Notes under the pieces: model-generated
The model's input: the letters and a program-made list of their open reading frames with translations, nothing else
What the model was told of the DNA's origin: nothing
Databases searched by the model: none
Translations under genes and position numbers: made by a program
Part shown: positions 3,413-41,440 of the stretch, in pieces
Layout: each line of letters starts with the position of its first letter
Numbering within the stretch: position 1 is the first letter of the stretch
Virus record (IMG/VR): IMGVR_UViG_3300035168_000015
Coordinates: 1-41,545 of that record
Source of the DNA: a virus
Reading direction: 5' to 3' (one strand)
Length of the DNA stretch: 41,545 nucleotides

Positions 3413-5020
3413 TCATCCTCTCACTTCGGGCTGCGACCACTTCGCAACCGGCTTGCCTGCAATCCACGCCTGCGCCTCGATCGCGCTGTTGCACTCCGGC
3501 GACACGGGAATGACGAACGTGCGTCCCGTTCCGCACTGAACTTTCAAAAACCCGCACTCGACAGCGCCGGGAATTTGACCGCGATAGAGAACTCCGATGA
3601 AAGGGTCGCCGTCATCGTCGATCAGTTTCGCGTCGATCCCGGAAAGCACGCGATCCCATCCGAGAATTTCGCATCCGGCGCGACGCACTTCGGCGTTTGT
3701 CTCTTTGAACACGTCGGCCGCAGTCAGATGCTCACGATCTTCGACCCAATGATCTGGCACGCGCACGCCGTGCCAGTGGTAAAGAGCCCATCCGTCACGC
3801 CAGCGATGCGACGGGCCGGTCTCGCAGTGCGGACGATGCTGATCGTCTACGCGAATGATTTCCGGGAAATCCGAGACGATGCAAAATTCCTCATGCATCA
3901 CACGAAACCCGCCGTGAATGGCGGCTTGTTCCCAGTGCGAATACGCGTCGTGCTGTGGCAGTCGCAAGCCAATCACGTCACGCATCGCCGAGAGATAACA
4001 GTCGTAACTAGCCCACATGTTGCCGCCTTGATGCGCGCGCCACCAGGTTCTTGCGCAGCTCAGTCCTAAATCTCCTGCCATTTCCTGGCAGGCTGCCGCA
4101 GCGCCTTTTTCAGCGACTGCGGCGGCGTCGGCGGCGGCGTCAGTGGCGGCGCGGGTGGCGGCGTCGGTGGCGGCGCTGGTGGCGTCGCGGGTGGCGGCGT
4201 CGGCGGCGGCGTCAGTGGCGGCGTCGGTGGCGGCGTCAGTGGCGGCGCGGGTGGCGGCGTCAGTGGCGGCGTAGGTGGCGGCGCTGGTGGCGTCGCGGGT
4301 GGCGGCGTCGGTGGCGGCGCTGGTGGCGGCGCGGGTGGCGGCGTCAGTGGCGGCGTAGGTGGCGGCGGTGGCGGCGCGGGTGGCGGCGTCAGTGGCGGCG
4401 TAGGTGGCGGCGTCAGTGGCGGCGTAGGTGGCGGCGGTGGCGGCGCGGGTGGCGGCGTCAGTGGCGGCGTAGGTGGCGGCGCTGGTGGCGGCGTCAGTGG
4501 CGGCGTAGGTGGCGGCGTCGGTGGCGACTGCGGCGGCGTCGGCGGCGGCGCGGGTGGCGGCGTCGGCGGCGGCGGTGGCGGCGCGGGTGGCGGCGTCAGT
4601 GGCGGCGTAGGTGGCGGCGCTGGTGGCGGCGGTGGCGGCGCGGGTGGCGGCGTCGGTGGCGGCGTAGGTGGCGGCGCTGGTGGCGTCGCGGGTGGCGGCG
4701 TCAGTGGCGGCGTAGGTGGCGGCGCTGGTGGCGTCGCGGGTGGCGGCGTCAGTGGCGGCGCGCTTTCGCGAATAAAGAATTGCAGCCGATGCGCCGTAGG
4801 CAAACGCCATGACGAGCGGTGACGGCGTTATTACGACGCGCGGCTTTTTCAAGCCAGCAGCGGCGTAAATGCCCTCGATTGCCGGAATGATTTTCTCCGG
4901 CTCGATCGGATCGGTTCGCATCGCGCGCTCGATCCAGAGAGCAGCGTGCTTGTCGAGAGCGACCTTTTCCTCGGCGGTAATTCCGCCTTCGGCGCGTGTC
5001 GGTGTTCTGATGATCGACAT
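3413..5020 (-). CDS. DUF6745-like protein with a large Ala-Ala-Thr-X tandem-repeat insertion
   Basis: A 535-residue protein in three parts. Residues 1-87 (with IYAAAGLKKPRVVITPSPL) and about 311-535 (WWRAHQGGNMWASYDCYLSA, RDGWALYHWHGVRVPDHWVE, NAEVRRAGCEILGWDRVL) resemble, from memory, the DUF6745 family found next to GHxH-type proteins. Between them lie about 220 residues made almost entirely of the tetrapeptide Ala-Ala-Thr-X, where X cycles through Asp, Arg, Ser and Tyr. I place the start at ATG 5020 (MSIIRTPTRAEGG); the frame upstream is a shadow of the 5050-5412 gene. No enzymatic motif is recognised. The repeat may form a long helix stabilised by Asp-Arg pairs. Confidence 0.8.
   Translation of the reverse strand: MSIIRTPTRAEGGITAEEKVALDKHAALWIERAMRTDPIEPEKIIPAIEGIYAAAGLKKPRVVITPSPLVMAFAYGASAAILYSRKRAATDAATRDATSAATYAATDAATRDATSAATYAATDAATRAATAATSAATYAATDAATRAATAAADAATRAAADAAAVATDAATYAATDAATSAATYAATDAATRAATAATYAATDAATYAATDAATRAATAATYAATDAATRAATSAATDAATRDATSAATYAATDAATRAATDAATDAATDAAADAATRDATSAATDAATRAATDAAADAAAVAEKGAAAACQEMAGDLGLSCARTWWRAHQGGNMWASYDCYLSAMRDVIGLRLPQHDAYSHWEQAAIHGGFRVMHEEFCIVSDFPEIIRVDDQHRPHCETGPSHRWRDGWALYHWHGVRVPDHWVEDREHLTAADVFKETNAEVRRAGCEILGWDRVLSGIDAKLIDDDGDPFIGVLYRGQIPGAVECGFLKVQCGTGRTFVIPVSPECNSAIEAQAWIAGKPVAKWSQPEVRG
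4093..4759 (-). repeat. 12-bp-period tandem repeat coding (Ala-Ala-Thr-X)n
   Basis: On the + strand the stretch is a run of GGCGGC-type units (GGTGGCGGC, GGCGTC, GGCGTAGGTGGC) with 12-bp periodicity and occasional 9-bp units. In the coding strand each unit gives GCC-GCC-ACC-X. A 48-bp higher-order pattern (X = Asp, Arg, Ser, Tyr) recurs at the 5' side. Units are near-identical at the DNA level, which suggests recent expansion by slippage or unequal crossover. All frames are open over most of it because the units lack stop codons. Confidence 0.95.
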
Positions 5021-5049
5021 TTGCAATTCCTCTGTTTGACAATTGAGAT

Positions 5050-5412
5050 TTACGCCGCGAGCTTCTTCTCCGCGCGGCGCCGACGCGAACGATTGCGCTC
5101 GCGGATTTTGCGAACGATCGGCCGCAGGCCGTCTTCGAAAATCTCGGCAGCGACCTGGACCTCGTAGCGCGTCACATGGCGCTCGAGCTCGGCGCGCGTC
5201 TCGCACAGATGCGCGAAGGTCATGATGTCGATCGGAGCCTTGATCGCGTTTTGCGCGGCGACGAGGCGCGCCATGAGATCGGCGTTCGCCGGATCGAGGC
5301 TGATCGGCGTCGTCTCGCAATATCGATCGCCGTCTCTCGTCGAGACGAAATAAACGCCGCCGATCGGCTTACGAAACTCGACGCTCACCAGGTCGTCGTC
5401 GCGCTTGTCCAT
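5050..5412 (-). CDS. First gene of the leftward operon, unknown small protein
   Basis: A 120-residue protein (MDKRDDDLVSVEFRKPIGGV...). The N-terminal half is strand-rich (VEFRKPIGGVYFVSTRDGDRYCETT), the middle helical, and the C-terminus is a very basic tail (KIRERNRSRRRRAEKKLA), which suggests nucleic-acid contact. ATG 5412 is preceded by GGAGGG with a 7-base spacer. It is the gene closest to the leftward promoter at 5463-5491, the place where lambdoid phages keep early regulators such as N, but there is no recognisable homology and no family assignment. Confidence 0.75.
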   Translation of the reverse strand: MDKRDDDLVSVEFRKPIGGVYFVSTRDGDRYCETTPISLDPANADLMARLVAAQNAIKAPIDIMTFAHLCETRAELERHVTRYEVQVAAEIFEDGLRPIVRKIRERNRSRRRRAEKKLAA

Positions 5413-5515: not shown

Positions 5516-5570
5516 TTTTTTCGCACGACTTGTTCTTTGGCGCGTATTCCGCGATTCGGTCAAGCCAATG

Positions 5571-5914: not shown

Positions 5915-6247
5915 TTACGAAGCCTTCAGCAATCCTTCCAAATAGCCGAGCACGCGCGCTTTCACATCAGGTGAAGCTTTTTCCAGATTGGCCCAAACCT
6001 CCCGAAGTGGGTCGCGCTTCGTCGGGTCGATCGTCAGCAGGTCCTCAGGATCGCAGCCGAATGCGAACGCAGCCTTTTCGAGGAAATCCTGATCGTATGG
6101 GGATTCGCCCTTCTCAATTCGGCTAATGGTGCTCCGGTCGACGCCGATGCGTTCGGCGGCGGCTTCTTGCGACAGCTTTCGGAACTTCCTCCATTGCAGG
6201 AAGAAGGTCGCGCGGCGCTCTCGGGATGGTTTCGAAACAGGCGGCAT
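5915..6247 (-). CDS. Prophage repressor, short XRE-family HTH protein (CI-like)
   Basis: A 110-residue XRE-type DNA-binding protein. The helix-turn-helix covers about residues 17-60 (WRKFRKLSQEAAAERIGVDR, STISRIEKGESPYD). The short C-terminal part (DPLREVWANLEKASPDVKAR) resembles helical dimerisation tails of alphaproteobacterial XRE regulators. There is no S24/LexA-like autocleavage domain. ATG 6247 is preferred because GAAGG lies 7 bases upstream; in-frame starts farther upstream (to 6331) run into the operators. It is divergent from the Cro-like gene, and its operators flank both early promoters. Confidence 0.88.
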   Translation of the reverse strand: MPPVSKPSRERRATFFLQWRKFRKLSQEAAAERIGVDRSTISRIEKGESPYDQDFLEKAAFAFGCDPEDLLTIDPTKRDPLREVWANLEKASPDVKARVLGYLEGLLKAS

Positions 6248-6259
6248 AACGAAACCTTC

Positions 6260-6332
6260 GTGCATACCTCGCACAAACGCCATAGCATCCCATGCACATC
6301 GTGCTTGACATGCACTGTGCATGTGATACACG
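6260..6332 (+). promoter_or_regulatory. Rightward early promoter and operator cluster of the lysis-lysogeny switch
   Basis: TTGACA (6305-6310) and TACACG (6327-6332) form a promoter with a 16-bp spacer. A perfect 17-bp palindrome centred on T6316 (ACATGCAC-T-GTGCATGT, 6308-6324) fills the spacer. Two more GTGC/GCAC inverted repeats lie at 6294-6304 (GCAC-ATC-GTGC) and 6260-6274 (GTGC-N7-GCAC). The arrangement resembles a three-operator lambdoid switch between divergent repressor and Cro genes. Confidence 0.75.
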
Positions 6333-6339
6333 TTCGGAT

Positions 6340-6561
6340 ATGAGACTGGATCAATACCTTAGCCATATCGGCGTCTCAGACGCGGAGTTCGGCGCGCGAA
6401 TTGGGCGCAGCCGCAGCGCGATCAGCCGATTGCGTCGCGGAAAGACGACGCCAGACTGGAACACCGTCAGCCGCATCGTGGTCGCGACCAACGGCGCCGT
6501 CACCGCAAATGATTTCCTTCCTGAGCAGGCTTCTCAGGAAGCCCCGCAACCCATTTCCTGA
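6340..6561 (+). CDS. Cro-like HTH regulator
   Basis: A 73-residue protein, MRLDQYLSHIGVSDAEFGAR followed by IGRSRSAISRLRRGKTTPDW, with one helix-turn-helix over about residues 12-45 and a short C-terminal tail. Its length and place opposite the repressor make it the Cro counterpart, expected to shut off repressor transcription in lytic growth. ATG 6340 starts about 8 bases after the -10 element and has no Shine-Dalgarno sequence, so the transcript may be leaderless. An in-frame upstream ATG (6292) would lie within the operators and is unlikely. Confidence 0.85.
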   Translation: MRLDQYLSHIGVSDAEFGARIGRSRSAISRLRRGKTTPDWNTVSRIVVATNGAVTANDFLPEQASQEAPQPIS

Positions 6562-17416: not shown

Positions 17417-19477
17417 ATGGCCGAGCTTGGATTTGCCTTCGACCCGAGCGCGATTCAGCTCGGCAATCTCGGCGTGGCGCTCAAATTCGCCCGCGCTGGC
17501 GTGCGCGTATTCCCGTGCGACCCGAGACCGAAAGAGAAGGACCAGAATAGCCCGACCAAGCGCCCGCTCGTCGAATGGACAAAGGAAGCAACCACCGACG
17601 AGGATCGGCTCGCCGCGTGGTGGGAGCGATGGCCGAATGCGCTCGTCGGTCTCCCGGCCGGGCCGGCGGAGCTCGTCATCATCGACGCGGATCGGCACGG
17701 CGGGCCGGACGGGGTGGCGGCGTTCGAAGATCTCGCGGCCACCCATGGCCTACCGTCCGGCCCCGTCGTCGAGACGCTATCGGGCGGGCGGCACTATTAT
17801 TTCGCCATGCCGGCGGGCGAGGCGCTAGGGAACTCGCGCGGGGCGCTCCCGGCGGGCGTTGACGTGCGCGGCGCCGGCGGCTTCGTCGCCGCGGCCGGCT
17901 CGGAATGGCGCGGTCGCTCTTACAGCGGCCTGGACGATGTGCTCGAGGCGATCGAAGGGGGAAATTTCCCCGTCCTCCCCGACTGGCTCGCGGACATGCT
18001 CCGCAGCCGGCCGGAAACGCCCCTGCCATCGACTTCCGCGCCGCGTCTGGCCCCTCATGCCGGTGAGCGAGAAAGAGCCTATGCAGAGGCCGCGCTGGCC
18101 GAGGAATGTAAGATCGTCGCGGCGACCGGCAAGGGCGGGCGCAATCACCAGCTCAATACGTCAGCGTTCAAGCTCGGCCAGTGTGTCGGCGCCGGGTGGA
18201 TTTCGCGGGCCACATGCGAGAGCGAGCTTCGGCGCGCCGCGATGGCCTGCGGCTTGTGGCGGGAGGAGCCGAAGCAAACGGCGAAGACGATTCGCAGCGG
18301 CCTCGACGGCGGCGAGCGCAAGCCGCGCGAGCCTCTTGAAACTTCCGAGCCTGTCGTCTTCCACGACCCGCAGCCGCGCGCCACGATCGTCGAGGATGGC
18401 GTCGTTGCCGACGCGGAGACGGGCGAGGTCATAGAGGACGCGCCGCCAGCGCCGGCCGCGAATGGTCTGCGCTTCAAGCTCACGCGCTTCGATGAAATCC
18501 CCTACTCCATCGACGACGACGATCTCGTCGAAGGGCTCTTGCCGTCAACTGGCGTCGCTGTGATCTGGGGCGCGCCAAAGAGCGGAAAATCATTCTGGGC
18601 GCTCGATCTGTCGATGCATATCGCTCTCGGATGGAAATATCGAGAGCTGAATGTCGAATGTGGCGTTGTCGTCTATGTCGCTCTCGAAGGTCAGGCTGGG
18701 TTTCGGCGGCGCATCGAAGGGTTTTGCCGTGAAAAACTCGACGGAAAGCGCGACCATGACGCGCTATTCTATTTGATCGAAACGCCGCTAAAACTCGTCA
18801 AAGATCAGAAGAAGCTCGTAAGCGATATCCGATCGCAGCTTGGCGACTTGCAGCCAACGGCGATATTCTTCGATACATTCTTCCGGGCGTTCGAGGGATC
18901 GGAAATCGACGCTTCGGACATGGAGAAGAACCTCGCCGCCTGCGATGCGATCAAGCGCGCATTCGGGTGTCTCGTAACGCTCATTCATCACTCGGGATGG
19001 GATGGCGAGCGCATGCGCGGTCACTCTTCGCTGTTCGGCGGCGTCGATGCGGTCATATCCGTGAAGAAGGACGGCCAGAACGTCGTCGCGAAGCTCGAGG
19101 ACGCCAAGGACATCGCGTCAGGGGCGGAGATCGCCAGCCGGCTCATAGAGGTCGAGATCGGCACGAACAAATACGGCAAGCCGGTCACGACGCTCACGAT
19201 CGCCGACGCCGCCGATCCGGTCGAGATCAAGGTCGACGAAGAAGCGGAGGGGAAGGAATTGACAACGGATCAAGAGGTGTTGCGCGCCTTACTGAATAAG
19301 CCGGGCGGGAACCTTCGCGAGTGGGCCGAAATGGCCGAGACATCGAAGGATAGCGTCAGCCGCGCGCTGGAGCGCCTGAAAAAGCATAAGCTTGTCGAGA
19401 AACCATTCGCAAAATGGCGCTTGACGCCGCTCGGAAAGCGCGAGGCCACACAGATCAATGAGGAGAAAAACGGGTAG
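17417..19477 (+). CDS. Primase-polymerase / RepA-like helicase fusion with C-terminal winged helix
   Basis: A 686-residue replication protein. Residues about 10-200 form a bifunctional primase-polymerase domain (PTKRPLVEW, IIDADRHGGPDG with D90 and D92, and SGGRHYYF with H126). Residues about 355-590 form a RecA-like hexameric helicase of the RepA/RSF1010 type: Walker A GAPKSGKS (385-392), YVALEGQAGFRRRIEGF, Walker B FFDTFFRAFEGSEIDASD and the sensor-like LIHHSGWDGERMRGHSSLFG. A winged helix (REWAEMAETSKDSVSRALER) closes the protein. It probably unwinds the phage origin and primes synthesis. The origin-like repeats follow directly. Confidence 0.9.
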   Translation: MAELGFAFDPSAIQLGNLGVALKFARAGVRVFPCDPRPKEKDQNSPTKRPLVEWTKEATTDEDRLAAWWERWPNALVGLPAGPAELVIIDADRHGGPDGVAAFEDLAATHGLPSGPVVETLSGGRHYYFAMPAGEALGNSRGALPAGVDVRGAGGFVAAAGSEWRGRSYSGLDDVLEAIEGGNFPVLPDWLADMLRSRPETPLPSTSAPRLAPHAGERERAYAEAALAEECKIVAATGKGGRNHQLNTSAFKLGQCVGAGWISRATCESELRRAAMACGLWREEPKQTAKTIRSGLDGGERKPREPLETSEPVVFHDPQPRATIVEDGVVADAETGEVIEDAPPAPAANGLRFKLTRFDEIPYSIDDDDLVEGLLPSTGVAVIWGAPKSGKSFWALDLSMHIALGWKYRELNVECGVVVYVALEGQAGFRRRIEGFCREKLDGKRDHDALFYLIETPLKLVKDQKKLVSDIRSQLGDLQPTAIFFDTFFRAFEGSEIDASDMEKNLAACDAIKRAFGCLVTLIHHSGWDGERMRGHSSLFGGVDAVISVKKDGQNVVAKLEDAKDIASGAEIASRLIEVEIGTNKYGKPVTTLTIADAADPVEIKVDEEAEGKELTTDQEVLRALLNKPGGNLREWAEMAETSKDSVSRALERLKKHKLVEKPFAKWRLTPLGKREATQINEEKNG

Positions 19478-19564
19478 GTGAGCGGATGGGCATCGAACTA
19501 CCCAATACGATTGAAAAGCACCTACACCTTGTCTCATACTCAAGCTCTAGTGAGACAAGCACGT

Positions 19565-19686
19565 GAGACAAAACACAGCTAAGTGAGGCGATGCTCTAAC
19601 GAATTTCGCCTCTTGTCTCAAACGTTCTCTGCGACAAAATGCGGCTAAGTGAGGAGACGCTCTAACGAATTTCCGTTCTTGTCTCA
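19565..19686 (+). repeat. Two-copy 56-bp imperfect direct repeat
   Basis: Units at 19565-19620 and 19631-19686 match at 47 of 56 positions. Each contains GCTAAGTGAGG and GCTCTAACGAATTT, begins with GA/GCGACAAAA and ends in TTCTTGTCTCA-like sequence, so each unit has inverted GAGACAA/TTGTCTC at its ends. This gives a nested structure with direct copies built from inverted iterons. Confidence 0.9.
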
Positions 19687-19806
19687 TATGCAAAAGATAT
19701 AGCTTGAGACAAGCGAGACAAATTAGGCTTAAATGTATGAAACATCTAATGAAATTAAAATGAGACAAGCGAGACAAATTATTTCTCAGGCTGTTTTTGT
19801 CCTCTC

Positions 19807-19848
19807 CCCAAAACCCCCTAAATCTCTTACGAGTTTAGGGGTTTTGGG
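19807..19848. other. Long C/A-G/T stem-loop
   Basis: CCCAAAACCCC(C)TAAA(T)CTC pairs with GAGTTTAGGGGTTTTGGG around a TTAC loop, an 18-bp stem with two single-base bulges. The G-rich strand continues into GGG, GGGG and GGGG runs (19859-19871), giving G-quadruplex potential. It may be a bidirectional terminator or part of the origin; no clear U tract follows. Confidence 0.75.
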
Positions 19849-19950
19849 CGGACAGCGCGGGCGGGGAGGGGCGAGACAAAAGGAATAGTAGGGTAGATGG
19901 TTTCCGCGTTCGATCGATCAATCTGAAACTAAGCAATGAGGGGTAAGGCA

Positions 19951-20193
19951 ATGGTTGCGAATATCGATAATTCAGAATTCTGGGGGAGATGCCGAAGCTG
20001 CCGCTATTTTTATCCGTTTCTCACAACCGTTAATATGGAGCCTGGGGAAGCCGGAGAGTGTCGCCTCAATCCTCCCGATATCGATAGGAGGGTATTGGAG
20101 TTCGGATGGCGAGTTTGGCCCGCTGTCAGATATATGGATTGGTGCGGAAAGCATGATGGACACAGCGACGACAGCCTCAATTCAGATCCTTGA
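19951..20193 (+). CDS. Small cysteine-rich (zinc-ribbon-like) protein
   Basis: An 80-residue protein with C-x2-C (GRCRSCRYFYP), a third Cys (GECRLNPP) and a fourth (MDWCGKH), the pattern of a common family of small phage and bacterial Cys-4 proteins (CxxCxxW ... GxCR ... WPxT/V ... WCGxH). ATG 19951 is preceded by GAGGGG; an in-frame ATG at 19936 is less likely. It is the first gene after the repeat region, at the early-late boundary. It may be a zinc-binding regulator, but its function is unknown. Confidence 0.75.
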   Translation: MVANIDNSEFWGRCRSCRYFYPFLTTVNMEPGEAGECRLNPPDIDRRVLEFGWRVWPAVRYMDWCGKHDGHSDDSLNSDP

Positions 20194-20268: not shown

Positions 20269-20883
20269 GTGTCCAACTGGTTCATCGTCGAGACGGTCGA
20301 AGGTCGCACCTCGGACGTGGTGCTCACCCTGGCCCGCGCCGGGTTCGAAGCTTGGCGACCCTTCTATGAGCTGCGCTCCGCCGATCGCCGCTCCACAGCC
20401 GGACGCAGGTCGGCCGCCAAAGCCGCGCACCCTCCCCGCCGCGTCCCGCGCTTCGGCCGCTACTTCTTCCTGCGCTGCGATCTCTCCCCCTCGATCGTCC
20501 ACGAAGTGCGCCACATGGCTGGCGTGCGCGATTGGCTGCGCTCCGCAGGCTCCTACGACCCGATCCCCGTTCCCGAGCGTGTGATGGCCTACCTGCGAGG
20601 GGAAATTTCCCCACGGGCTCCGCAGGGCTGGCAAGACGCCATCCGTGTCGGCCAGCGCGTCACCATCGCGCTCGAATTCCCGCTCTGGGGAGGACGCTCG
20701 GGAATTGTGCGAGCAATTGACAGGAGAGGGCAATTGCGAGTAGACATCGACCAATTCGGGAGCCCGATCCCATTCGTCATCGAAGTCGGGCACATCGTCG
20801 AGGGACTCGCGCTGGCAAAGCCGCCGGCCTCGACGGTGTCAAATCGCACCCGGCCAGTCATGGAACTGGCAGCGGGTGCGTAA
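20269..20883 (+). CDS. NusG-like transcription elongation factor, candidate late antiterminator
   Basis: A 204-residue protein with an N-terminal NGN-type domain (MSNWFIVETVEGRTSDVVLT, LARAGFEAWRPFYELR, PRFGRYFFLRCDLS) and a C-terminal KOW-like domain (IRVGQRVTIALEFPLWGGRS, GIVRAIDRRGQLRVDID). NusG-family paralogues such as RfaH and LoaP modify RNA polymerase to read through terminators. The start is GTG 20269 with GAGAGG upstream. It is a second, phage-encoded copy, and lies exactly between the replication and packaging genes, where lambdoid phages keep Q. No Q- or N-like gene is otherwise visible. Confidence 0.85.
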   Translation: MSNWFIVETVEGRTSDVVLTLARAGFEAWRPFYELRSADRRSTAGRRSAAKAAHPPRRVPRFGRYFFLRCDLSPSIVHEVRHMAGVRDWLRSAGSYDPIPVPERVMAYLRGEISPRAPQGWQDAIRVGQRVTIALEFPLWGGRSGIVRAIDRRGQLRVDIDQFGSPIPFVIEVGHIVEGLALAKPPASTVSNRTRPVMELAAGA

Positions 20884-20887
20884 GCTA

Positions 20888-20952
20888 TTCCTGCCAGGAA
20901 GTCGCTCTGCTTGTAATGGTTGAACTCCTTGACCCGGGGCGAGCAGAGCGAC
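20888..20952. promoter_or_regulatory. Two adjacent inverted repeats between nusG-like gene and terS
   Basis: TTCCTG-C-CAGGAA (20888-20900) is a perfect 13-bp palindrome. Directly after it GTCGCTCTGCT (20901-20911) pairs perfectly with AGCAGAGCGAC (20942-20952) across a 30-base loop that contains CCTTGACCC, a possible -35. The structures sit in the only gap between the NusG-like gene and the late operon. Candidate roles are an antitermination loading signal, a terminator/attenuator or a packaging-associated site. Confidence 0.6.
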
Positions 20953-20979
20953 ACCAATTCGCCAATCGAGGAAATCACA

Positions 20980-21570
20980 ATGCCCATTCTGCCGAATGCG
21001 CGGCATGAGCGCTTCGCGCAGGAACTCGCCGCAGGAAAGAGCGCCAGTGCCGCATATATTGCCGCCGGTTTCAATCCGCATGATGGAAATGCAGCTCGTT
21101 TGAGCGGAAATGAGAGGGTCCGAGAGCGCGTCGCTGAATTGCTCAAAGAAGCTGCCGACAAGAACGGAGTGACGATCGAGCGTATCGTCGCAGAGCTGGC
21201 GAAGATCGGCTTTTCTGACATTCGTAAAGCTGTGCGTTGGAAGAGTTCTCTTATTCAGGAAGAGGATACTCCAGACGGTGGCGACGTTCTCGTCATCAAG
21301 AATATTGTGACGAATACGGTCGAGATCATCGGGAGCGACGAAATCGACGATGCGACGGCCGCGGCAATCGCCGAGATCAGCCAAAACGAAAAGGGCGGCG
21401 TGAAGATCAAGCTTCACGACAAACGCGCGGCTCTGGTCGATCTCGGCAAGCACCTCGGCATGTTCCCGAACAAGGTCGAGCATACGGGCAAGGATGGCGG
21501 GCCGATCCAAATCTCGACAAAGCAGCAGCGCGACGCCGCCGTCGCCGCAGCGCTCAGAGCCGACACCTGA
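20980..21570 (+). CDS. terS: Terminase small subunit
   Basis: A 196-residue protein with the Terminase_2-type N-terminus (PNARHERFAQELAAGKSASA, AYIAAGFNPHDGNAARLSGN, ERVRERVAEL), a helix-turn-helix that binds the packaging site. The middle is acidic (SDEIDDATAAAIAEISQNEK) and the C-terminus (HDKRAALVDLGKHLGMFPNK) is the oligomerisation/ATPase-stimulating end. GAGG lies upstream of ATG 20980. It pairs with TerL to recognise and cut concatemeric DNA. Its 3' end overlaps terL by 77 bases. Confidence 0.92.
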   Translation: MPILPNARHERFAQELAAGKSASAAYIAAGFNPHDGNAARLSGNERVRERVAELLKEAADKNGVTIERIVAELAKIGFSDIRKAVRWKSSLIQEEDTPDGGDVLVIKNIVTNTVEIIGSDEIDDATAAAIAEISQNEKGGVKIKLHDKRAALVDLGKHLGMFPNKVEHTGKDGGPIQISTKQQRDAAVAAALRADT

Positions 21571-23014
21571 AGACTTCGCGCATTCGCGATTGCTCGCCTA
21601 TGCGGCCTATCAGTGGCCGGCCTATCGTGACGCCCCGCACCATCGCTTGATTGCTCGCAAGCTCGAGGCGGTGGAGCGCGGCGAAATCACGCGGTTGATG
21701 ATCGCCATGCCGCCGCGTCATGGAAAATCGATGCTGGCGAGCGAGTTCTTCCCGGCTTGGTATATCGGTCGCAATCCGAACCATTATGTCGTCACGGCGA
21801 CATATGCTCAGGACCTCGCCGACGATTTCGGCCGCAAGGTCAAGAACCAGATCGAGGACGCGATCTTTTCGGAAATTTTCCCAGGCGTTCGACTGGCGGG
21901 AGACAGTAAGGCTGCGAAGCGGTTTCATTTCGAGCGCGATGGATCGGTCGAGGAAGGCGGCTTCGAATACGGACTCGAACAACAAGGTGCGTTTTACGCC
22001 GTTGGCGTCGGTGGCCCGCTCACAGGTCGTGGCGCGCATCTGCTCTTGATCGATGATCCGGTAAAAAACCGCGAAGACGCGGATTCCGAAGTCATTCGGA
22101 AGAAGATGAAGGATTGGTATACGTCGACAGCTTACACGCGTCTTATGCCGGGCGGTCGGATCGTCATCATTCAAACGAGATGGCATGAGTCGGACCTTTC
22201 CGGTTGGCTGTTGGAAGAGCATGTGCATGAAGGCTGGGATGTTCTCAGCCTGCCGGCGATTTCTAAGAGCGGTGAAGCGCTCTGGCCGGATCAATACGAC
22301 CTCGAGGCGCTAAACCGCATCAAGCGGACGCTCCCGGTCCGCGACTGGTCGGCTCTCTATCAGCAAGAGCCGACGCCGGACGAAGGCGCGTATTTCAAAG
22401 CCGAGTGGATTGTCCCTGTCGACACGCTGCCGCCGCTCTCGACGATGCGCGTCTATGGCGGAAGCGATTATGCGGTCACGAGCGACGGCGGCGACTACAC
22501 GGTTCACGCTGTCGTCGGCCTCGATCCTGAAGGCAATCTCTACCTGCTCGATCTATGGCGCCGGCAAGCCGCGTCGGACGAATGGGTCGAGGCGTGGTGC
22601 GATCTCGTCACGAAGTGGCGGCCGATGGAATGGGCCGAGGAAACCGGACAGATCAAATCTGGCGTCGGCCCGTTCCTCGATCGCCGGGCGCGTGAGCGCC
22701 GCGCCTATTGCGTGCGGACGCAGTTCCCGACGCGCGGCGACAAGGCGGTTCGGGCGCAGTCGATGCGCGGACGCATGGCGCTCGGCGGGTTGCGCGTGCT
22801 GGCTTCTGCGCCATGGCGTGCCGACTTCGTGAGCGAGCTGCTGCGCTTCCCCGCTGGCGTGCATGACGATCAGGTCGACGCGCTCGGCCTTGTAGGGCAG
22901 TTGCTCGATAAGATGCTCGCTGGCGTCGCGCCGAAGTCCGACAGCGCGCCGAAGCGCTCCGGCTACTCGCCGATCTCGACGCGCTCGCGTGGCGTCTCTG
23001 CGAACACGATCTGA
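21494..23014 (+). CDS. terL: Terminase large subunit
   Basis: A 506-residue packaging motor. The ATPase has Walker A MPPRHGKSM (residues 72-80), the conserved VVTATYAQDLADDFG and Walker B LLLIDDPVKN. The C-terminal nuclease has a D-rich first strand (YGGSDYAVTSDGGDYT) and DDQVDAL near the end. Start ATG 21494 gives a 77-bp overlap with terS and a weak ribosome-binding site (AAGG too close); no better in-frame ATG precedes the conserved region, and a TTG near 21590 is the main alternative. It packages DNA into the prohead through the portal. Confidence 0.93.
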   Translation: MAGRSKSRQSSSATPPSPQRSEPTPEDFAHSRLLAYAAYQWPAYRDAPHHRLIARKLEAVERGEITRLMIAMPPRHGKSMLASEFFPAWYIGRNPNHYVVTATYAQDLADDFGRKVKNQIEDAIFSEIFPGVRLAGDSKAAKRFHFERDGSVEEGGFEYGLEQQGAFYAVGVGGPLTGRGAHLLLIDDPVKNREDADSEVIRKKMKDWYTSTAYTRLMPGGRIVIIQTRWHESDLSGWLLEEHVHEGWDVLSLPAISKSGEALWPDQYDLEALNRIKRTLPVRDWSALYQQEPTPDEGAYFKAEWIVPVDTLPPLSTMRVYGGSDYAVTSDGGDYTVHAVVGLDPEGNLYLLDLWRRQAASDEWVEAWCDLVTKWRPMEWAEETGQIKSGVGPFLDRRARERRAYCVRTQFPTRGDKAVRAQSMRGRMALGGLRVLASAPWRADFVSELLRFPAGVHDDQVDALGLVGQLLDKMLAGVAPKSDSAPKRSGYSPISTRSRGVSANTI

Positions 23015-41423: not shown

Positions 41424-41440
41424 TCCCTCCGAGGCCTCCA
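41424..41440 (+). repeat. attR: attR core, 17-bp direct repeat
   Basis: TCCCTCCGAGGCCTCCA is identical to the end of tRNA-Cys at 111-127. It is the displaced original 3' end of the tRNA gene and closes the prophage. No other part of a tRNA is present here. Confidence 0.95.

Follow-up and report, generated by a model that had tools for sequence, protein, structure and literature searches.

We found that a temperate prophage carries its own NusG paralogue at the boundary between the early block and the terminase genes, and we put the probability that this gene encodes a late elongation factor with a leader-loaded mechanism at roughly two in three. In the proposed mechanism, the phage-specific paralogue would be the late-gene elongation factor (antitermination or anti-Rho) and would take the place that Q has in lambda. 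The protein would be the last product of the early transcript, would load onto host RNA polymerase at a leader site before terS, and would then remain attached to it across the ~20 kb of the late block, suppressing pausing or the action of Rho. A hairpin between nusG and terS (20901–20952) is the best candidate for the loading or leader element. We infer RNA polymerase binding and antitermination, as well as the use of this hairpin as the loading site.

Genome organization of the prophage

The window, meaning the whole stretch of 41,545 nt that was analyzed (IMG/VR record IMGVR_UViG_3300035168_000015), was a complete temperate prophage of ~41.3 kb, since a 17-bp att duplication (TCCCTCCGAGGCCTCCA) was present at 111–127, the 3′ end of a tRNA-Cys gene, with its second copy at 41424–41440. 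The main features are listed in Table 1, in which the start of terS was set by homology with the terS of a relative (L001). Downstream of terL, a P22-like portal was encoded (PF16510, E 4.9e-98). The late block of ~20 kb was entirely on the + strand, and the early proteins that were scanned included no Q- or N-type product. These results agreed with the earlier note, which had described a late operon of about 20 kb, no visible Q or N homologue, and a NusG-like gene between the replication and packaging genes; the last point was borne out by the gene order and by the Pfam and PHROG matches given below.

The non-coding region right after the primase/helicase gene is probably the replication origin; alternatively, it could be part of the late leader. 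Its hairpin had a folding z-score of −5.4, which ranked 5 of 2,965 + strand windows. The small ORF upstream of nusG had no match in a Pfam search. On the minus strand, the ORF at 3413–5320 contained a long repeat tract rich in alanine, threonine and aspartate (about 4070–4760), with strong folding at the DNA level.

Table 1 Features of the prophage and of its early–late boundary.
Feature	Position	Strand	Evidence or remark
Integrase	155–1240	minus	From ORF list
Repressor and Cro-like genes	5915–6561		
Recombination/replication block	7.6–19.5 kb		
Primase/helicase	17417–19477		
Non-coding region between primase and nusG block	19478–19935		GAGACAAG iteron-like repeats; strong hairpin at 19803–19850
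Small ORF (85 aa, with cysteines) before nusG	19936–20193	+	PHROG only, E 0.006
NusG-family gene, NGN + probable KOW-like C-terminal domain, 204 aa	20269–20883	+	Pfam, PHROG, AlphaFold
13-bp palindrome TTCCTGCCAGGAA	20886–20898		At chance level; not regarded as belonging to the system
Long structured hairpin, candidate loading/leader element of the late operon	20901–20952	+	11-bp perfect arms; folding z-score
CCAATTCGC directly 3′ of the stem	20954–20962	+	Tentative
terS, small subunit of terminase; opens the late block	20980–21570	+	PF03592, E 1.1e-19; PHROG 51, E 1.6e-30
terL, terminase large subunit	21494–23014	+	PHROG 38, E 3.6e-116

The NusG-like protein

The ORF that starts with GTG at 20269 and ends with TAA at 20883 is a genuine NusG-family gene and encodes a NusG paralogue. 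Residues 3–108 matched the NGN domain (Pfam PF02357 NusG, 35.9 bits against a cutoff of 22.2), and residues 1–168 matched the profile of PHROG 6386, 'transcription antiterminator' (E 1.9e-13). The fold of the AlphaFold model (pLDDT 75.9) matched NusG and RfaH structures with a best E of 6.7e-11, and the model consisted of an NGN domain and a beta C-terminal domain (strands 130–133, 144–150, 155–162 and 165–172). The matches of the model to NusG structures were full-length, but model confidence was moderate and Pfam gave no separate KOW HMM match. Global superposition of the model on the NusG and RfaH structures was poor, probably because the two domains are free to move relative to each other. 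The FG motif was retained.

The assignment of the protein to a named group of paralogues was rejected in three cases. The scores were 18 bits for RfaH (TIGR01955), far below the curated cutoff of 144.5, 12.7 bits for LoaP (NF033641; curated cutoff 125), and 15.1 bits for UpxY (NF033644; curated cutoff 100). The phiLM21-type proteins of several relatives (L016, L098, L099, L019, L108) seemed to be without a KOW domain, and their C-terminal part looked helical in sequence, unlike that of the window protein.

Occurrence of the gene upstream of packaging genes

Genes of this type are known, as NusG-like genes have already been annotated in phages. At this same position, NusG-like antiterminator genes are annotated in the Sinorhizobium phages phiLM21, phi2LM21, and phi3LM21 and in the Rhizobium phage RHph_N28_2. 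The phiLM21 literature describes the early region as ending with a 'transcription antiterminator', and an antiterminator ORF was present in all 25 phiLM21-like prophages studied (PMC12429752). The statement that a NusG-based late switch would be unusual for a phage was therefore too strong. In phiLM21, phi2LM21, and phi3LM21, the nusG-like gene overlaps the upstream early gene and is therefore the last early gene. NusG-like ORFs were also found upstream of terL in three prophages of named genomes from Rhizobiaceae (L103), Rhizobiales (L106), and Chelativorans (L108).

No close relatives of the window (above 60% identity) were found in the collections searched. With the window protein as the query, phage and plasmid collections yielded no relatives, tblastn against phage records gave no match at this degree of divergence, and a motif scan of an 84,980-species genome collection confirmed no relative. 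A viral search with the phi3LM21 NusG as the query found nothing. Window-type relatives were obtained from viral contigs; they had 25–40% identity, and the gene lay upstream of packaging genes.

Across unrelated phages, the gene keeps its place in front of the packaging genes. The terminase families downstream of the gene differed, being PHROG 38 in the window, PHROG 15 in L008, L010, and L349, PHROG 9 in L012, L341, L348, L351, and L353, and PHROG 2/979 in L013. The downstream large ORF of L002 matched an uncharacterised family only, and the record of L005 ended before any terminase. Of 48 records whose TerL is related to that of the window, four carried PHROG 6386, each 0.8–3 kb upstream of terL. 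Since the other 44 records, several of which were fragments, lacked the gene, the nusG-like gene does not belong invariably to the TerL clade of the window but is a mobile module. The conserved linkage in related phages envisaged by the earlier note thus held for the gene and its place upstream of packaging genes, but not for the hairpin sequence of the window, which was not found in relatives.

Conserved elements behind nusG in relatives

In a sample of 80 loci with phiLM21-type proteins (L136–L215), the DNA right after nusG was strongly conserved although it is non-coding. The leader RNA was ~90 nt long (for example, 3684–3776 in L136 and 3623–3715 in L148), and its elements came in the order GTGATTTG, outer helix, CGGACC, variable stem, GGGAAYACTCGMCGG, and outer helix. 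Across 42 distinct sequences, 90.7% of cells paired in the named 14-pair structure. The covariation score was 0.332, compared to 0.101 for shuffled and 0.026–0.125 for slid versions, with part of the excess over the slid versions being expected from a structure that was derived from the same sequences. Double changes were found in 75 cells against 23.9 expected, many of them in the outer helix. At the gathering threshold, no Rfam family matched this leader RNA, and tRNAs were the only Rfam families in the window or in the leaders of its relatives.

A sigma70-like promoter lay over the 3′ end and the stop codon of the phiLM21-type nusG, at a fixed distance and mostly with a 17-nt spacer. A score of at least 8 of 12 consensus positions was reached by 55 of 57 distinct sequences, which are mutually related and not independent cases, and by 112 of 1,140 background windows. 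When the RNA motif alone was used for the search, a NusG-like ORF was present upstream at 71 of 80 sites (63 within 100 nt), which is a linkage check rather than a fully new sample, given that many of these sites came from the same records as the protein search. Five of the nine sites without an upstream NusG-like ORF had less than 500 nt of upstream sequence. Exactly one motif copy was found in each of the 50 records that were searched whole, and none with a reversed-pattern control. A pattern scan of 397 genomes of one order returned one match, which mainly shows that the phiLM21-type leader motif is rare. Ten host genomes scanned with the RNA model yielded no copy, a result that carries no information because of the initial filter of that scan. 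Motif copies without a NusG-like ORF directly upstream were observed in L237 (at 1028), L220 (at 1501), L242, L289, and L292, and the regulator for these copies may be elsewhere or lost.

An intrinsic terminator followed the leader in 5 of 67 phiLM21-type loci, as well as in L100, L101, and L005. With only these 5 of 67, a lambda tR′-like terminator after the leader was rejected as a general feature. We found no description of nusG-adjacent leader elements in the open-access literature searched.

A second group of relatives had a stem-loop plus AAGTGCGAAGC behind nusG. The motif GTGCGAA(A)GC occurred once after nusG, on the + strand and 1–343 nt from the stop codon, in phi2LM21, phi3LM21, L010/L011, L012, L341, and L351–L354, in most cases just behind a short stem-loop that was rich in G+C and differed in sequence between loci. 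The chance expectation was 0.0037 per 350 nt, for a motif that was noticed by eye and a list made up of the loci that have it. The exact motif was absent from L348 and L349, which belong to the same protein group. A stem-loop followed by AAGTGCGAAGCT, 1–343 nt after nusG, was observed in L351 (4640–4665), L352 (4645–4670), L353 (4643–4668), L354, L341, L010, L012, L100, and L101. The sequences GCGAAGC and GCGAAAGC in this second element are known from DNA work to form very stable mini-hairpins; the DNA-folding program used did not reproduce this special stability. By analogy, the second element is perhaps an ops-like site.

The hairpin between nusG and terS

Two inverted repeats between nusG and terS had been read in the earlier note as parts of a possible late antitermination system. 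The perfect 13-bp palindrome was indeed present right after the nusG stop codon, but it was rejected as a functional site because 26 palindromes of this 6-1-6 type were observed in the window against 22.3 expected, which is the chance level. The 11-bp perfect stem before terS was confirmed, with arms at 20901–20911 and 20942–20952. Its 30-nt 'loop' was itself structured (outer helix of 14 bp including G-U, inner helix of 6 bp), and the RNA folding energy of the hairpin was −31.3 kcal/mol.

Folding was scored for 56-nt windows against dinucleotide-preserving shuffles over the whole + strand of the prophage. The window at the hairpin, the start of which was placed on purpose while the remaining windows were on a 14-nt grid, had a z-score of −7.05 and ranked 1 of 2,965, the next being −5.5. 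Across calculations, the z-score of the hairpin was about −6 to −7. Its absolute energy was not unique in the G+C-rich DNA of the prophage. About a dozen further 11-bp inverted repeats were present in the window, and the exceptional property is therefore the whole hairpin together with its place. It took up the greater part of the 96 nt that separate nusG from terS. The string CCAATTCGC stood 1–2 nt after the stem and also after a stem at the corresponding place in L002 and L003, a short match that was noticed after the fact.

The phiLM21-type RNA model had no match in the window, and neither did the ops-like GTGCGAAGC motif of relatives, for which the best near-matches had 4 mismatches and lay far from nusG. 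In a z-score scan of relatives, a strong hairpin right after nusG was not seen as a general rule. We propose the hairpin as the loading site of the window because it is the strongest in the prophage and occupies the place at which conserved elements are found in two groups of relatives; the proposal is tentative, at slightly below even odds.

Alternative roles of the protein and the hairpin

It is possible, though rather doubtful, that the NusG-like protein is the late regulator while the hairpin is an mRNA processing or stabilising element (e.g., an RNase III site) that sets the early messages apart from the late ones, with loading elsewhere, either within nusG or in the region 19478–19935. 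Long rod-like hairpins with a small internal loop resemble processing sites, and the hairpin of the window has this form. No clear promoter was found before the hairpin, including the stretch between it and nusG; the best candidate (TTGACA-18-TAGACA at 20717) matched 9 of 12 positions, and chance alone would give about one site of this quality in the region. In L001, nusG and terS overlap with zero gap, and therefore no leader fits after this nusG and loading there must be elsewhere. A second strong hairpin was present at 19803–19850, inside the region 19478–19935. These points are opposed by the placement itself, as the two groups of relatives keep their element right after nusG, where the strongest hairpin of the window stands.

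On the + strand, no intrinsic terminator was found at 5516–40613, and the NusG-like protein, if it acts, therefore acts on Rho or on pausing. The absence of such terminators from the late block as far as 40.6 kb would also fit a global action, in which the protein vies with the host NusG for RNA polymerase or interferes with NusG–Rho silencing and the end-of-early position serves only for timing. Rho silencing of foreign DNA via NusG is established in E. coli (PMC7819879), and the model of the window protein has a NusG-like beta C-terminal domain with the FG motif kept. A decoy needs no leader element, however, yet the relatives keep single-copy elements exactly behind the gene, and we consider such a global action improbable.

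Packaging sites are often at or next to terS, and the inverted repeat adjoins terS, which would suit a terminase recognition (cos/pac) site unrelated to transcription. A P22-like portal such as that of the window goes with headful packaging, in which pac is usually inside terS; moreover, in relatives with extra genes between nusG and terS, the elements follow nusG and do not precede terS. A cos/pac site is accordingly quite improbable. Finally, a housekeeping-type NusG acquired by chance, with no phage-specific role and a coincidental hairpin, is hardly credible: NusG genes are universal and 25–40% identity among relatives indicates little sequence constraint beyond the fold, but the phage and plasmid collections gave no match, the 84,980-species genomes none that the motif scan confirmed, and viral contigs yielded relatives at the same position beside unrelated terminases.

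Comparison with known antitermination systems

The window resembles the phiLM21-type antiterminators (phiLM21, phi2LM21, phi3LM21, RHph_N28_2; PHROG 6386) in that a NusG-domain gene ends the early block upstream of the terminase genes. It differs from them in the probable KOW-like domain of its protein, which is seemingly absent from the phiLM21-type proteins, and in its leader, which does not match the phiLM21-type RNA. RfaH, which works with ops in Enterobacteria, is likewise a specialised NusG paralogue for long operons, and its fold was matched by the window model. The ops hairpin is read by RfaH in the non-template strand (PMC6391919). The GCGAAGC motif in one group of relatives is reminiscent of this non-template hairpin, whereas the window has no such motif. 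RfaH has an alpha-helical autoinhibited C-terminal domain that refolds; that of the window protein was beta in the one model, a result compatible with fold switching.

LoaP of Bacillus velezensis, also a NusG paralogue, depends for its activity on an RNA hairpin that lies in the leader of the operon (PMC12691694). The window is similar to LoaP/dfn in combining a NusG paralogue with a candidate leader RNA hairpin, but the dfn hairpin is small, of the UNCG type, and followed by an intrinsic terminator, while the window hairpin is long with no terminator after it. In the lambda Q/pR′ layout, a promoter and then a leader that contains a loading element come after the last early gene, and the phiLM21-type relatives similarly have a last early gene, then a promoter and a leader with a putative loading element. 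However, Q is not a NusG homologue, the window is without a clear late promoter, and a terminator behind the leader is not general among the relatives. In the Caulobacter GTA cluster, antitermination by GafZ involves host NusG in a complex with another protein (PMC11150451). The likeness here is an alphaproteobacterial phage-derived late cluster run by an antiterminator, as is proposed for the window, and the difference is that the phage factor of the window is itself NusG-like.

Implications for late gene control in phages

Many Alphaproteobacteria phages may use their own NusG paralogue in the Q position as late-gene antiterminator, each lineage with a cognate leader element directly behind the gene, a reading to which we give an even chance. 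With odds that are just as balanced, the cognate elements would be the covarying ~90-nt RNA plus the promoter over the nusG stop codon in the phiLM21 type, the stem-loop plus GCGAAGC DNA mini-hairpin in the phi2/3LM21 and L351 type, and the long rod hairpin in the window. If this pairing by lineage is true, gene and element would form a mobile regulator–site module that co-evolves, and phage antitermination would gain another class in addition to lambda N, lambda Q, and HK022 put. To date, the way in which NusG-family proteins choose their operons has come from only a handful of systems, including RfaH/ops and LoaP/dfn, and the paired leader elements would add examples that use a DNA hairpin, an RNA hairpin, or both. 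Many Alphaproteobacteria phages are without visible Q or N homologues, and if phage NusG paralogues do the late switching, they would provide a testable late switch for many prophages.
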